In this document: piece after piece, positions 1,554-6,252 of the stretch
Layout of the letters: the number at the start of each line of letters is the position of its first letter
How positions within the stretch are numbered: position 1 is the stretch's first letter
Origin: a virus
Strand: one strand, 5' to 3'
DNA: 36,915 nt
Virus record (IMG/VR): IMGVR_UViG_3300025093_001722
Coordinates: 1-36,915 of that record
Program-made: the position numbers and the translations under genes
The notes under the pieces: model-generated
Database searches by the model: none
Seen by the model: the letters and a program-made list of their open reading frames with translations, nothing else
What the model was told of the DNA's origin: nothing

Positions 1554-1759
1554 AGTATGTCGCTAGGGCTCAGCTCTCTCGGCTGGGCGGCTTCAATACC
1601 GCCCGCTTTGTTAATCAGATCTATGGTTGTCCAGGGGCCACGGCGGCCGTTAAACACAACGACGCCTTGCTCTCTCAAACAGCGCGCGGCATCTGCCGGG
1701 CGCTGGTATCCAGTTATCTTCTTGATTTCCTCGCAGTCTAGTACGTTTTGTAGGCTCAT
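1550..1759 (-). CDS. DUF4224 domain protein, possible excisionase-like factor
   Basis: 69 residues. The N-terminal half (CEEIKKITGYQRPADAARCL followed by REQG) is the DUF4224 pattern, found in small phage proteins encoded next to integrases. Its start overlaps the stop of the gene before it and its stop overlaps the integrase ATG, so the three are translationally coupled. Known neighbours of this family suggest a small DNA-binding or directionality role in recombination, but no function has been read directly here. It is the best candidate in the window for a recombination directionality factor. Confidence 0.72.
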   Translation of the reverse strand: MSLQNVLDCEEIKKITGYQRPADAARCLREQGVVVFNGRRGPWTTIDLINKAGGIEAAQPRELSPSDIL

Positions 1760-2079
1760 GACTTATTCCTTGCCCGCCAGCGGTTGAAGCGGTTGCGAAT
1801 CATGCGGAACGTTTGGCACGCGGCTGGGTTGCTATCCAGCTCGGCGCGGCTGTTAATTTTGCAGGCAGCACACAGCCAATCGCGCGCATCTTCGGCGGTA
1901 TGGGTGCCGTCGGGTAACTGGCTTTCGTTTAGTTGGTGCTTGTACCGGCGGCGGCGATCCAGGTAGAGCAGGAACGCTTTGTCTTGGCACAGCATTGCTG
2001 CCTGGCGTGCGTAGGCACCGCCTTTTGGCGGCGGCGGCGTTCTCGCCGGCGGAGTGTGGTTGTGTTTTGTATCTATCAT
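1756..2079 (-). CDS. Phage hypothetical protein, basic
   Basis: 107 residues, Pro-rich N terminus (residues 9-18) and a basic body with LYLDRRRRYK near 40-48 and RNRFNRWRARNKS at the C terminus. A CxxC-type pair (LCAACK) is present near 70. The pattern LDRR...DGTHTAEDARDWL...SRAEL is one I associate with small phage proteins of unknown function. Its ATG overlaps the TGA of the alternative-frame methyltransferase-locus ORF (ATGA) and lies 10 nt after the stop of the methyltransferase frame. It is clearly coding by context (operon, overlaps) but its function is unknown; a nucleic-acid-binding role is only a guess from its charge. Confidence 0.7.
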   Translation of the reverse strand: MIDTKHNHTPPARTPPPPKGGAYARQAAMLCQDKAFLLYLDRRRRYKHQLNESQLPDGTHTAEDARDWLCAACKINSRAELDSNPAACQTFRMIRNRFNRWRARNKS

Positions 2080-2882
2080 GCTGCTACCTCACTCTTTACT
2101 GAGCAGGGCGAATGCTGCTGCCGCCACTCTCGGAACTTGTCCATTTCCAAGGGCTTTAATTCTGTCCACCCGGTTGGCCACCCCATTAGCCACTCGACCC
2201 ACGTTGGGTTCAACTGGCCACCGATCACATTCACTAAGTGCTCTCCCTGCTTTCCCCCTGTTCTTTCTGCTCGGCTTCTGCCCGGAGATCGGTAGTCCCG
2301 CGCACATGGTGTCGGGTACTTTTTTACTGCTGTTGCTAGTCCGTCCCCGCTTTTCGCACTTACCCCTTTCCGGTTGTTGTTCCCGCAGACTGTGGGAGTA
2401 GGCCACAATCCAGATTCTTTCCCTTTCATGGTGTGCACCAAGGTCGGCAGCGGATACGCAGCCCCATGGTGCATCAAACCCCATTTCGGCCAGGTCTCCG
2501 AGAACCCTTCCGAGTCCGCGAGAAGTGAGCACTGGGCTGTTTTCCACGAAGACGTAGCTGGGCTGTACTTCGCGAATGATCCGCGCCATTTGCTCCCATA
2601 ATCCTGACCGCTGCCCCTCGATGCCGGCACCTTTTCCAGCAGCGGAGATGTCTTGGCAGGGAAAGCCGCCAGAAACGACGTCAACACGGCCTCGCCATGG
2701 CTTTCCGTCAAAACTGCACACGTCAGACCAAATAGGGAAAGGCGCGAGGGCTCGATCGTTTTGTCGTTGCGCCAGAACTTGTGCTGCGTAGGCATCACGC
2801 TCAACGGCGCAGACGGTTCTCCACCCGAGTAAGTGTCCGCCGAGTATTCCGCCACCAGCGCCCGCGAAAAGAGCCAGCTCAT
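2076..2882 (-). CDS. Alternative-frame protein overlapping the methyltransferase gene
   Basis: 268 residues, read one base out of phase with the cytosine methyltransferase over almost its whole length. The start is an ATG overlapping the stop of the upstream gene (ATGA), and its own TGA overlaps the ATG of the next gene (ATGA). The product contains SRLSLFGLTCAV, PAKTSPLLEKVP, a block rich in Trp and Ser (SSWKTAQCS, FSETWPKWG), WPTPTVCGN, YPTPCARD and, at about 217-252, GGQLNPTWVEWLMGWPTGW. I recognise these as recurring segments of phage proteins often found beside or annotated as part of cytosine methyltransferases. This suggests that both frames are expressed. The function is unknown. The alternative is that the frame is kept open by composition alone, which the family-like segments argue against. 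Confidence 0.55.
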   Translation of the reverse strand: MSWLFSRALVAEYSADTYSGGEPSAPLSVMPTQHKFWRNDKTIEPSRLSLFGLTCAVLTESHGEAVLTSFLAAFPAKTSPLLEKVPASRGSGQDYGSKWRGSFAKYSPATSSWKTAQCSLLADSEGFSETWPKWGLMHHGAAYPLPTLVHTMKGKESGLWPTPTVCGNNNRKGVSAKSGDGLATAVKKYPTPCARDYRSPGRSRAERTGGKQGEHLVNVIGGQLNPTWVEWLMGWPTGWTELKPLEMDKFREWRQQHSPCSVKSEVAA

Positions 2883-2886
2883 TCAC
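2089..2886 (-). CDS. dcm-like: DNA cytosine-5 methyltransferase
   Basis: 265 residues, short for a C5 methyltransferase. Motif I is FAGAGGG (7-13, SAM binding), motif IV is GGFPCQD with catalytic C77, motif VI is present as VENS (114-117; the usual ENV has become ENS), motif VIII is ERERIWIVA near 154-162, and motif X-like KALGNGQVP is near the C terminus. The target-recognition region between VIII and IX is small. It begins with GTG preceded by AAGGGGG, and overlaps the upstream stop by 8 nt. It would methylate phage DNA, probably as protection from restriction. A second frame is open across the same DNA and has its own family-like motifs (see the overlapping entry). Confidence 0.9.
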   Translation of the reverse strand: MNELALFAGAGGGILGGHLLGWRTVCAVERDAYAAQVLAQRQNDRALAPFPIWSDVCSFDGKPWRGRVDVVSGGFPCQDISAAGKGAGIEGQRSGLWEQMARIIREVQPSYVFVENSPVLTSRGLGRVLGDLAEMGFDAPWGCVSAADLGAHHERERIWIVAYSHSLREQQPERGKCEKRGRTSNSSKKVPDTMCAGLPISGQKPSRKNRGKAGRALSECDRWPVEPNVGRVANGVANRVDRIKALGNGQVPRVAAAAFALLSKE

Positions 2887-3217
2887 TGATACCCCCTTCG
2901 ACTTTTCGGCGTAGCTTATCGCCTCTGTTCCAACACTGATTGGCGGCTATGGGTTGATCGTAAGCATCCAACCGCTCTGACATATCAAAAAGCGCCTGGG
3001 CTTTTATAAGCTCATCACGGCGGGCTGTGTCGCGTAGGTAACGCCCAGCTTCCTCGACTTGGCATGCCAGCTCTTCAACGCGCTTTTGCATTTCCTGACG
3101 CTGCAGAATATGCACCTCTACGAGTGTGCGATTCAGGTTGCCCGCTATTGTCAGCAACTCGATTTGCCGGGCGGCTTCTTCGGGGTTCTCGCGAACCCAG
3201 TTCGGATCGATGGCCAT
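2879..3217 (-). CDS. Phage hypothetical protein, coiled-coil-like
   Basis: 112 residues, mostly charged and helical, with a likely coiled coil at about 35-70 (LVEVHILQRQEMQKRVEELA). No recognised domain. It opens after a TAAGGGGGAAGC ribosome site, 9 nt after the stop of the small membrane protein gene, and its own stop overlaps the starts of both methyltransferase-locus frames. It is part of the compact early operon between gpA and integrase, where P2-type phages carry variable small genes. The function is unknown. Confidence 0.65.
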   Translation of the reverse strand: MAIDPNWVRENPEEAARQIELLTIAGNLNRTLVEVHILQRQEMQKRVEELACQVEEAGRYLRDTARRDELIKAQALFDMSERLDAYDQPIAANQCWNRGDKLRRKVEGGISE

Positions 3218-3670: not shown

Positions 3671-5974
3671 TCAACAAAGCTCGGGCGGGAAGTATTCGTC
3701 TTCCTCGCGTTGGGTGTGCTTGGGTACCGGCGCGAAGAGTTTTCGCGCAGCTTCTATGGCTGCCTTACCTTCTCGGTAGGCACTTTCCGACTCGGCCCGG
3801 TAAATTTCTGAGCGCTTCCACTCTTCGAGACGTTCGCGCTGGGCTTTTATCTCTTCGGGTGATGGCTCGCGGGGCTGGATATCTGGCCCCTGCGTACAGT
3901 TAGTGACACGAGTCCAAGGGCTTTCGGCTTCGCCTACAGCCTGAAAATCAACCCCTAACCCCGCGCCTTTCGCGCGAACGTGCCACTTATAAACGCGGGT
4001 CACGTACTCGCTAGAAAAGCCAGGGCGGCCGGTGGCCACCAGCCCGAACGTCACTTTCTGCTCTTCGCCATAGCGGCCTTTGGCCACCACCGCTTCGGCT
4101 CCGTAGTATTCGCCGGTTGCGTGGCTGAACTGCTCGACGTTGGGGCCGGTGTTCATCTTGGTTTCTACCCACGGCTTGATCGGCTGGTCTTTGCGTTTGG
4201 TCATTGGGCCGCCCATGAGCCTCAGAAACTGATCCCATTGCCCAGCATTGGCCGCCTTTCGGATCTGGGCGAAACGCATCGCTGCGCACGGATGTGGGCG
4301 GGTAGCCGCTTCCCAGTCCTTGAGCATTTGGTCTTGTTTCTCAGTGAGGCGGCGCACTTCACGCCAGACAGTGACGGAAGGCAGGCCGATAAACTGAAAC
4401 TGACGGATACCCCATACGCTGGCCCACGCTTCAATACGTGGAGCGCTCTCGGTCATGGAGTGATCGTATTTGTCGGCGTCCATGAACTGTTCGCCGTTAA
4501 TGTTCTTGCTGATGTATTTAGCGACGTAACCGGCGGCGGTGCCCTTGCTGTAGTCGATGCGTTTAGCATCAAAGCGAGCGTTGGTTTTTCGGCCACGGCT
4601 AAACAGCTCTTCTTGCTGTGACTCTTCGGCGTAGTCGCGAAGAGTGCTGGTTACCCGTTTTTCATCTTCGGGCTTCATCCAAAGCAACAAGTGCCAGTGT
4701 GGTGTGCCGTCATGGTGGGGTTCTACGACTCGGATGCCATAAACGCCGATATTGTCGCGTGCCAGCTTCGCGCGAACCTTCGACCACAAGCCTTGCAAAT
4801 ACTGTTGCGCCTGGCGTGGTGTGTCGCCTTGGTATTTGCGGTTGCGCACGCAGTTATTAGCGATCACCGCGTGAAACTTTGACGGCGTGGTCATGGTGTA
4901 AAACATGCCCGTATGCCCCAGGCGGCGGGCTTCGGCTTCGGTATCGCTGATACGCAGCATGAGCTCAGCGCGCCGATGATCGGGATTGGCCAACCCCTTT
5001 TCTGCCAGCTCCGCCAGCGTGAAAACCTGCCCCTCTTGATTGATAGCCTCTAGGGTTTCAAGCAAGGCGTTATTGCGGAATTTCTGGGAGCGGCGGCGCT
5101 CCACCGTGAAGTCACTGCAGTAAATGCCCGCCTGCTTGTGCACGCGGTGAGCTTCACGCATAACCTGCTCAACCGCGCGGCCACACTGGCGACGTAGCTT
5201 ACGACGCCACCAGAGTGAGCAGCTCAGACGCGCTAACTGGGTTTTGCTCGCCAACTTATCGCTAGGGGGCGCGATACCATGGAGCTTGCACTTAGTGCGC
5301 CCAAACTCAATGGCTGCAGCTTGAACGACAGAAAGGCACAGCGGGCGCATGTAATGCCACTTTTGGAAGCGGAAGTTGCCAATAAAGGGCGGTGGAGTGA
5401 ATTGGTTTCGAGTGCGGGCACAAGCGTCTTGATAGTCGCGGAACTGCTCAGACAAAGGCTTATTACCTGCCGCCATGCGAGGCCTTCCGGCAGGTGGCAA
5501 CAGCCCCAACCGCTGCAAGCGGTTTACCTTTGCAATATCGCCTATCAAGAGGCTCGCTTTTTTATCGATGGCTGCCGCTTGGGCTTGGGCGTGATTCACC
5601 AGCGCATCGTCGTCGTGTGTAGCGTTCAGGCTGCCAATGATCAAGCGCTTTTCGATGCTCTTTAACCACTTGTCAGCCGCATGTAACCCTTCAATGGTCG
5701 TGGAGCCACGATGCACGATGGAGTTCATCGCGCGCGTAAGCTCGGGCCGGATCGGTAGGAACCGGTCAATGATGAACGACGGCTCGGTAAGATCCTGCGC
5801 GTTGCGGCGTAGCCAGCGGTTAGCCGCGGCGTGACCATGTCGCTTTGAAACATGGACATAGCCATCGGCTAACTGACTGGCCAACGACGGCAAGCGCTCG
5901 AAGTGCGCCTGCAGGAAGGTGTAGCAATCCTGGGTGCCAGAGCTGTGCTGAAAGGCTAGGGCTAACGCGCTCAC
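3671..5974 (-). CDS. A: gpA-type rolling-circle replication initiation endonuclease
   Basis: About 767 residues from GTG 5974, which overlaps the upstream stop (GTGA) and has AGAGGT 7 nt before it; a GTG at 6001 would add nine residues. Counting from the latter, the HUH metal motif is GTPHWHLLLW (H435, H437) and the paired active tyrosines are Y492 and Y496 in GYVAKYISKN. These are the marks of P2 gpA (Phage_GPA family), which nicks the replication origin and stays bound to the 5' end to start rolling-circle replication. The region around 205-380 carries the usual basic, Arg-rich gpA body (WWRRKLRRQ). Length matches P2 gpA (761). P2 has its origin inside the A gene; the same is expected here but I could not locate the nick site. 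Confidence 0.94.
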   Translation of the reverse strand: MSALALAFQHSSGTQDCYTFLQAHFERLPSLASQLADGYVHVSKRHGHAAANRWLRRNAQDLTEPSFIIDRFLPIRPELTRAMNSIVHRGSTTIEGLHAADKWLKSIEKRLIIGSLNATHDDDALVNHAQAQAAAIDKKASLLIGDIAKVNRLQRLGLLPPAGRPRMAAGNKPLSEQFRDYQDACARTRNQFTPPPFIGNFRFQKWHYMRPLCLSVVQAAAIEFGRTKCKLHGIAPPSDKLASKTQLARLSCSLWWRRKLRRQCGRAVEQVMREAHRVHKQAGIYCSDFTVERRRSQKFRNNALLETLEAINQEGQVFTLAELAEKGLANPDHRRAELMLRISDTEAEARRLGHTGMFYTMTTPSKFHAVIANNCVRNRKYQGDTPRQAQQYLQGLWSKVRAKLARDNIGVYGIRVVEPHHDGTPHWHLLLWMKPEDEKRVTSTLRDYAEESQQEELFSRGRKTNARFDAKRIDYSKGTAAGYVAKYISKNINGEQFMDADKYDHSMTESAPRIEAWASVWGIRQFQFIGLPSVTVWREVRRLTEKQDQMLKDWEAATRPHPCAAMRFAQIRKAANAGQWDQFLRLMGGPMTKRKDQPIKPWVETKMNTGPNVEQFSHATGEYYGAEAVVAKGRYGEEQKVTFGLVATGRPGFSSEYVTRVYKWHVRAKGAGLGVDFQAVGEAESPWTRVTNCTQGPDIQPREPSPEEIKAQRERLEEWKRSEIYRAESESAYREGKAAIEAARKLFAPVPKHTQREEDEYFPPELC

Positions 5975-6252
5975 GCTGTTACCTCTTGAACTGCTGTGCA
6001 CTCCCAGCCCACGGCCGCCATATCCACGCCGACAAAGCGCGGTAATTCAGGGGGAAGCTGAACGGCAGCAATATCGAGGCGGTAGTCCTCCAGCACACTT
6101 TCGATTTGCGTGAGCTGGCAGCCGAAGTGGTGGGCTTCGCGCTTGAGTTCCTCGGCGGCCATGCGGTGACCTGCTTGCTCCAGCTGTTTGGCGAGGTAGT
6201 CAAAACGCGCCTTGATGACGTACAGCCCGTGCATGGTGGTGGGTAGGTTCAT
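5971..6252 (-). CDS. Phage hypothetical protein, helical
   Basis: 93 residues. The first two thirds are predicted helical (ARFDYLAKQLEQAGH, AAEELKREAHHF), the C-terminal part contains LPPELPRFVGVDMAAVGW. No recognised domain. Start and stop overlap the neighbours (ATG over the preceding TGA; GTGA with gpA), indicating translational coupling to replication. The function is unknown. Confidence 0.6.
   Translation of the reverse strand: MNLPTTMHGLYVIKARFDYLAKQLEQAGHRMAAEELKREAHHFGCQLTQIESVLEDYRLDIAAVQLPPELPRFVGVDMAAVGWECTAVQEVTA

Follow-up and report, generated by a model that had tools for sequence, protein, structure and literature searches.

Can almost the whole of a methyltransferase gene also encode a second conserved protein in another frame of the same strand, and what would this second protein do? 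The question is raised by a locus in a 36,915 nucleotide stretch of viral DNA (here called the window), a P2-like prophage contig with a replication gene A at 3671-6001 and an integrase gene at 405-1553. An earlier note, made from the letters alone, had described a cytosine methyltransferase gene of the window as overlapped by a second frame coding for another conserved protein. Cellular and phage genomes rarely have two conserved proteins encoded over a long distance by overlapping frames of one strand. The two proteins are here apparently halves of one enzyme, which makes the function of the hidden gene directly testable, and the shared bases are a natural case for studying how recognition regions can diversify in DNA that has to code for another protein as well.

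Gene arrangement, selection and distribution

The m5C methyltransferase gene (alpha) is located at 2089-2886 on the minus strand, starts with GTG and encodes 265 amino acids. The second gene (ORF2, the proposed beta chain) is encoded at 2076-2882 on the same strand in frame +1 of alpha; it starts with ATG, 4 nt inside alpha (GTGAATGAG), and codes for 268 amino acids. Coordinates and frames were confirmed, and both frames are open together for about 790 bp, as had been described. The ATGA overlaps reported to join ORF2 to both neighbours were also found: at 2879-2882 (minus strand) the stop codon of the upstream gene (2879-3217, minus strand) shares ATGA with the ORF2 start, and at 2076-2079 (minus strand) the ATG of the next gene (1756-2079, minus strand) shares ATGA with the ORF2 stop. 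A Shine-Dalgarno-like GGGGG (2892-2896, minus strand) precedes both starts, the alpha GTG at a distance of 5 nt and the ORF2 ATG at 9 nt. Comparison of 77 loci showed that a Shine-Dalgarno sequence GGRGG is conserved at positions −9 to −5, most often separated by 4-5 nt from the start codon of alpha; its distance from the ORF2 ATG is 8-9 nt. The ORF2 ATG is kept in 76-77 of the 77 loci at each base, the alpha start varies (ATG, GTG, TTG).

Selection was analysed in 118 independent close pairs of homologues. The nonsynonymous/synonymous rate ratio of ORF2 was 0.34 for changes that are silent in alpha and 0.55 for changes that alter alpha; a control with neighbouring genes read in a fake +1 frame (48 pairs) gave 0.94 and 0.86, respectively. 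Since the ORF2 ratios are low compared to this control, purifying selection acts on each of the two overlapping frames. The balance is different in the 3′ part: for alpha, the ratio at changes that alter ORF2 is 0.68 there instead of 0.23, and for ORF2, the ratio at alpha-silent changes is 0.25 instead of 0.38. The third positions of conserved fourfold alpha codons have an identity of 0.61 versus 0.25 expected (2862 pairs, 77 loci). Identity reaches 0.99 (0.25 expected) over alpha residues 229-240, the bases of which are shared with ORF2 WVEWLMGWPTGW, and is 0.34-0.37 over alpha residues 73-96, where alpha is highly conserved. The constraint on synonymous changes that the earlier note had proposed to examine is thus present.

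The open +1 frame is not chance. Codon shuffles that preserve the methyltransferase put 426 stops into the +1 frame of 104 loci, about 4 in each, and for the window locus the probability of an open frame was 0.001; the count of zero observed +1 stops is partly given by construction, because shuffling was restricted to the part of the overlap that is open. Dual coding would be contradicted if close relatives had stops in the second frame, or if its homologues were spurious annotations only; neither was found.

Homologues were fetched with ORF2, with alpha alone and with distant ORF2 queries, and bacterial genomes were added. All 80 loci fetched by the alpha protein alone, which share contigs in part with the ORF2-fetched set, carry ORF2 in +1, and in each the overlap is open over 450 bases or more. 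In 372 of the 402 distinct loci, which are not independent events because many are related by descent or share contigs, motifs I-VIII and X are encoded in one frame and an ORF2 with motif IX in +1. An ORF2 clearly without an overlapping methyltransferase was not found among the 402 distinct loci; four of these are without a scored N-terminal part, three of them being cut at the contig end. Altogether, hundreds of loci were found in phages and in genomes of many phyla, and the hosts of phages carrying the pair include Mycobacterium, Streptomyces, Paenibacillus, Lacticaseibacillus, Porphyromonas, Synechococcus, Vibrio, Acinetobacter and others. A DNA search of an E. coli collection identified only four genomes, in which the match is annotated as an ordinary DNA cytosine methyltransferase.

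One gene of the pair is often missed by annotation. In phage N15 (locus L483), gp58 (1541-2266) is annotated as 'possible cytosine-specific modification methylase', and an unannotated ORF2 homologue is present in its +1 frame (E 2.8e-26) with an internal ATG at 1625 and a GGGAGG 8 nt before it. Only alpha is annotated in E. coli PT62 (L482) and only beta, as 'hypothetical protein', in mycobacteriophage XFactor (L084); phage Bloom (L100) has both, as overlapping 'DNA cytosine methyltransferase' genes. Due to such half-annotation, cloned single genes may look inactive, and it may explain some phage methyltransferases without an assigned specificity.

Methyltransferase motifs in the two chains

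Alpha carries the cytosine methyltransferase motifs that had been listed for it, I, IV (GGFPCQ), VI (ENS), VIII and X (GNGQVP); in all, motifs I-VIII and X are present and motif IX is absent. Residues 4-174 match Pfam DNA_methylase (E=2.4e-32), and alpha also matches phrog_363 and, by HMM, M.HhaI (1.4e-37). Motif IV with the predicted catalytic Cys77 is encoded at 2653-2670 (minus strand; G74, P76, C77 and Q78 are invariant in 82 sequences). Motif X, LGNGQVP, is encoded at 2131-2151 (minus strand; N248 is invariant), and the overlapping bases encode LEMDKFR in ORF2. The AlphaFold model of alpha has pLDDT values mostly of 91-98 over residues 1-160 (one block 82) and of about 95 over 251-260; residues 191-240 are disordered (pLDDT <50). 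The model aligns with M.HhaI (VIA-align Z 22.7, rmsd 2.5 over 191 residues, of M.HhaI 327) and with M.HaeIII (Z 20.4). As modelled, alpha is a catalytic large domain without motif IX or a folded small domain.

ORF2 matches phrog_1008 ('DNA methyltransferase') at 7e-31, and its C-terminus also matches a few smaller unnamed PHROGs; Pfam, NCBIfam, PDB and PADLOC gave no significant match. Residues 104-223 (2214-2573, minus strand) contain the conserved segments 'YSPATSSWKT', 'TWPKWG', 'WPTPT' and 'YPTP' and are proposed to be the target recognition region. They are followed by residues 224-240 (LNPTWVEWLMGWPTGWT; 2163-2213, minus strand), in which P226, W231 and M233 are invariant in 107 sequences. 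The pattern LNPxWVEWLMGxPxGWT, with most positions invariant or nearly so, is found in ORF2 and not in alpha, and it precedes motif X. The canonical motif IX is about L-[TS]-P-R-E-x-x-R-L-x-G-F-P. The ORF2 pattern has this layout and we call it motif IX-like, on the basis of the pattern, of its position before motif X and of profile support that comes through phrog_116 and locus L466 only.

Comparison of the two frames showed that conservation is higher in alpha for motifs I-VIII and X, and higher in ORF2 for a large part of the recognition region and for motif IX. Identity in the ORF2 frame versus the alpha frame is 0.52 versus 0.21 over ORF2 residues 181-195, 0.39 versus 0.27 over 211-225 and 0.89 versus 0.72 over 226-240. 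The AlphaFold prediction for ORF2 alone was poor (mean pLDDT 61, pTM 0.28) and the structural search gave no match; therefore no claim is made about its fold, and a small-domain fold for ORF2 stays a proposal. There is no sign that ORF2 is a duplicated methyltransferase, and comparison of the alpha and ORF2 profiles gives no relation, a result that is expected yet is not counted as support. The N-terminal part of ORF2 (residues 1-60, window positions 2703-2882; up to 70-100 residues) is more conserved in the proteobacterial group than alpha can account for; in distant relatives it is absent or different and the ORF2 match begins later.

Motif X is not always encoded in alpha. At nine loci (L355, L359, L387, L401, L406, L410, L443, L444 and L459; type B) it is located together with motif IX in the ORF2 (+1) chain. 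In most of them alpha ends soon after motif VIII, and the +1 chain runs past the alpha end and carries motif X; in L355, for instance, alpha ends with ...RIWILAYAKHSGSN and beta with ...LNPDWVEWLMGWPIGW...RLKAIGNGQVPQVVAIAFSILSEGI. The alpha-family profile phrog_363 matches the C-termini of type-B beta chains with the end that carries motif X. With Pfam DNA_methylase one member of the ORF2 set was matched and none of the type-B beta chains, which carry IX and X. The genes gp32 and gp33 of Streptomyces phage Vash are divided as in the nine loci. At L466, a frame change joins motifs I-VIII and the ORF2 recognition and IX region in one open frame, and this fused frame is matched along its length by one profile, phrog_116 (residues 5-309). 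Loci L401 and L410 have identical alpha chains, and their beta chains differ mainly by an inserted 'WPTP' module of about 40 residues. Such a difference in beta only is expected if the recognition region sits on beta, and the insertion hints at a modular change of specificity.

Simple repeats were observed inside the overlap of some loci: (AG)13 at 2052-2077 of L302, (AC)10.5 at 2021-2041 of L218 and poly-G/C tracts of 9-12 in about 20 others, for example at 1446 and 1703 of L466 and at 2180 of L044. They are about three times denser in the overlap (26 in 458 kb, compared to 35 in 1.76 Mb of flanking sequence; the loci are partly redundant). In L302, L218 and L466 the repeats are close to the frame-change point, which suggests slippage or phase variation of a split enzyme, or sequencing error. 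The frame-broken loci L190, L218, L302, L420 and L466 may be assembly or sequencing errors.

Readings of the second frame and the proposed enzyme

We propose, with a probability of roughly 85%, that alpha and ORF2 are the two polypeptides of a single split m5C DNA methyltransferase, ORF2 being the half that alpha is missing. Four observations argue for this: alpha is without motif IX and a folded small domain, ORF2 is largely the better conserved frame there, motif X has moved between the chains, and L466 joins both parts in a frame that matches phrog_116. Three other readings were weighed. ORF2 might be a non-coding shadow, kept open by the conserved methyltransferase frame with its biased codon use. 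Over alpha residues 73-96 the conservation of ORF2 is indeed explained by alpha alone, the third positions there being near baseline. This reading is already contradicted by the second-frame selection, for which the neighbouring genes served as control, and by the about 4 stops per locus expected from the shuffles; moreover, ORF2 exceeds the methyltransferase frame in conservation over much of the recognition region and, in type B, the +1 chain extends beyond the alpha end with motif X. We give it next to no weight.

The earlier note had named a modulator of the methylase and an anti-restriction protein as possible roles of ORF2, a suggestion that is most likely wrong. Its own start codon, the coupling to the neighbours and the N-terminal region, which is separate and conserved among the proteobacterial loci, would suit an independent regulator, but throughout the 402 distinct loci ORF2 is found on an m5C methyltransferase gene, it is without a PADLOC match, and it contains a recognition-like region and the IX-like segment that alpha is lacking together with a folded small domain. 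In nine loci it also contains motif X, which a regulator or anti-restriction protein would have no reason to acquire; such a role is disfavoured and seems very improbable to us. The same low standing is given to the reading that ORF2 is no protein of its own and that programmed frameshifting or transcriptional slippage yields one long methyltransferase, with a passage from frame 0 into +1 to take in the recognition region and motif IX and a return to frame 0 for motif X. L466 has motifs I-VIII and the recognition and IX region in one frame, some loci have slippable homopolymer or dinucleotide tracts in the overlap, and the overlap order of gp32 and gp33 in phage Vash suits a single shift. The common layout, however, needs two opposite shifts, ORF2 has a conserved ATG with a well-placed Shine-Dalgarno sequence and is already conserved ahead of any place where a shift is likely, and the window is not among the loci with such tracts in the overlap.

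For the split enzyme, the sequences suggest the following division of labour. Alpha would bind SAM and carry out catalysis via motifs I-VIII and would contribute the motif X helix. Beta (ORF2) would form the small domain with a recognition region of 'PTP' modules followed by motif IX (LNPTWVEWLMGWPTGWT), and it would set the specificity, as judged from the position of the conserved 'PTP' modules. A ribosome on the one Shine-Dalgarno sequence could begin at either of the tandem starts 4 nt apart, so that both chains would be made from one mRNA and the shared initiation region might keep alpha and beta in step; ORF2 would additionally be coupled to its neighbours via the ATGA overlaps. We infer that ORF2 is translated and that alpha and beta bind each other. 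The assembled enzyme would methylate phage and/or host DNA at the site set by beta. It has been reported that separately made fragments of several m5C methyltransferases assemble (PMC3404938). In the stretch beside the pair, which was inspected without a systematic search, no restriction enzyme partner was seen among the neighbours, and for this reason the role is probably that of an orphan phage methylase protecting its DNA. A more general proposal, which we regard as doubtful, is an ancient rule valid across phages: catalytic and specificity halves would be kept in coextensive frames, motif X would be mobile and the tracts would act as switches between split, fused and broken states, allowing phase variation of the methylome.

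Comparison with known systems

Lee, Kam and Shaw reportedly described in 1995 that the gene for the small chain of M.EcoHK31I is located inside the gene for the large chain in the other frame. The second gene of the pair described here is likewise in another frame (+1 in 372 of the 402 loci). In M.EcoHK31I (recognition sequence YGGCCR), a small polypeptide contributes motif IX and the large chain all the others (I-VIII and X); the recognition domain is predicted to be on the large chain as well (PMC3404938). By motif layout the window pair is alike, alpha having I-VIII and X and ORF2 the IX-like segment; the statement that the second product has no known function accordingly needs qualifying, because split m5C methyltransferases with IX on the small chain are known. 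In contrast to M.EcoHK31I, the second chain here equals the first in length and its start lies 4 nt further on, so that the genes are coextensive. The recognition region is here apparently on the second chain, a difference that counts against the split reading. In M.AquI, alpha contains I-VIII and beta the distal variable region and motifs IX-X (PMC3404938). A catalytic half and a half with recognition region and motif IX are on two polypeptides there as here, and the nine type-B relatives match its motif split; the window differs in that motif X is kept on alpha, so that IX and X are not together on the second chain, and in that the genes overlap completely. M.HhaI and M.HaeIII, whose large domain is matched by alpha, are single chains, and their small domain between VIII and X is without a folded counterpart in the alpha model.

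Another protein hidden in a different frame of phage methylase genes is the out-of-frame HNH endonuclease with the ShiLan domain, which is an inserted homing element with patchy distribution (PMC11855218). The second frame described here, in contrast, belongs to the enzyme gene itself and occurs in the whole family. No report of such an overlap in phages was found in the open-access literature, and the paper on frame transitions identified with GeneTack concerns other methyltransferases only. The PHROG families phrog_1008 (ORF2), phrog_363 (alpha) and phrog_116 (the fused frame of L466) are all 'DNA methyltransferase' families; the phrog_1008 and phrog_363 entries do not mention that the two are overlapping frames of one locus. 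Split m5C methyltransferases of two polypeptides are already known; what appears to be new is the coextensive overlap with tandem starts, its breadth and the annotation that misses one half.
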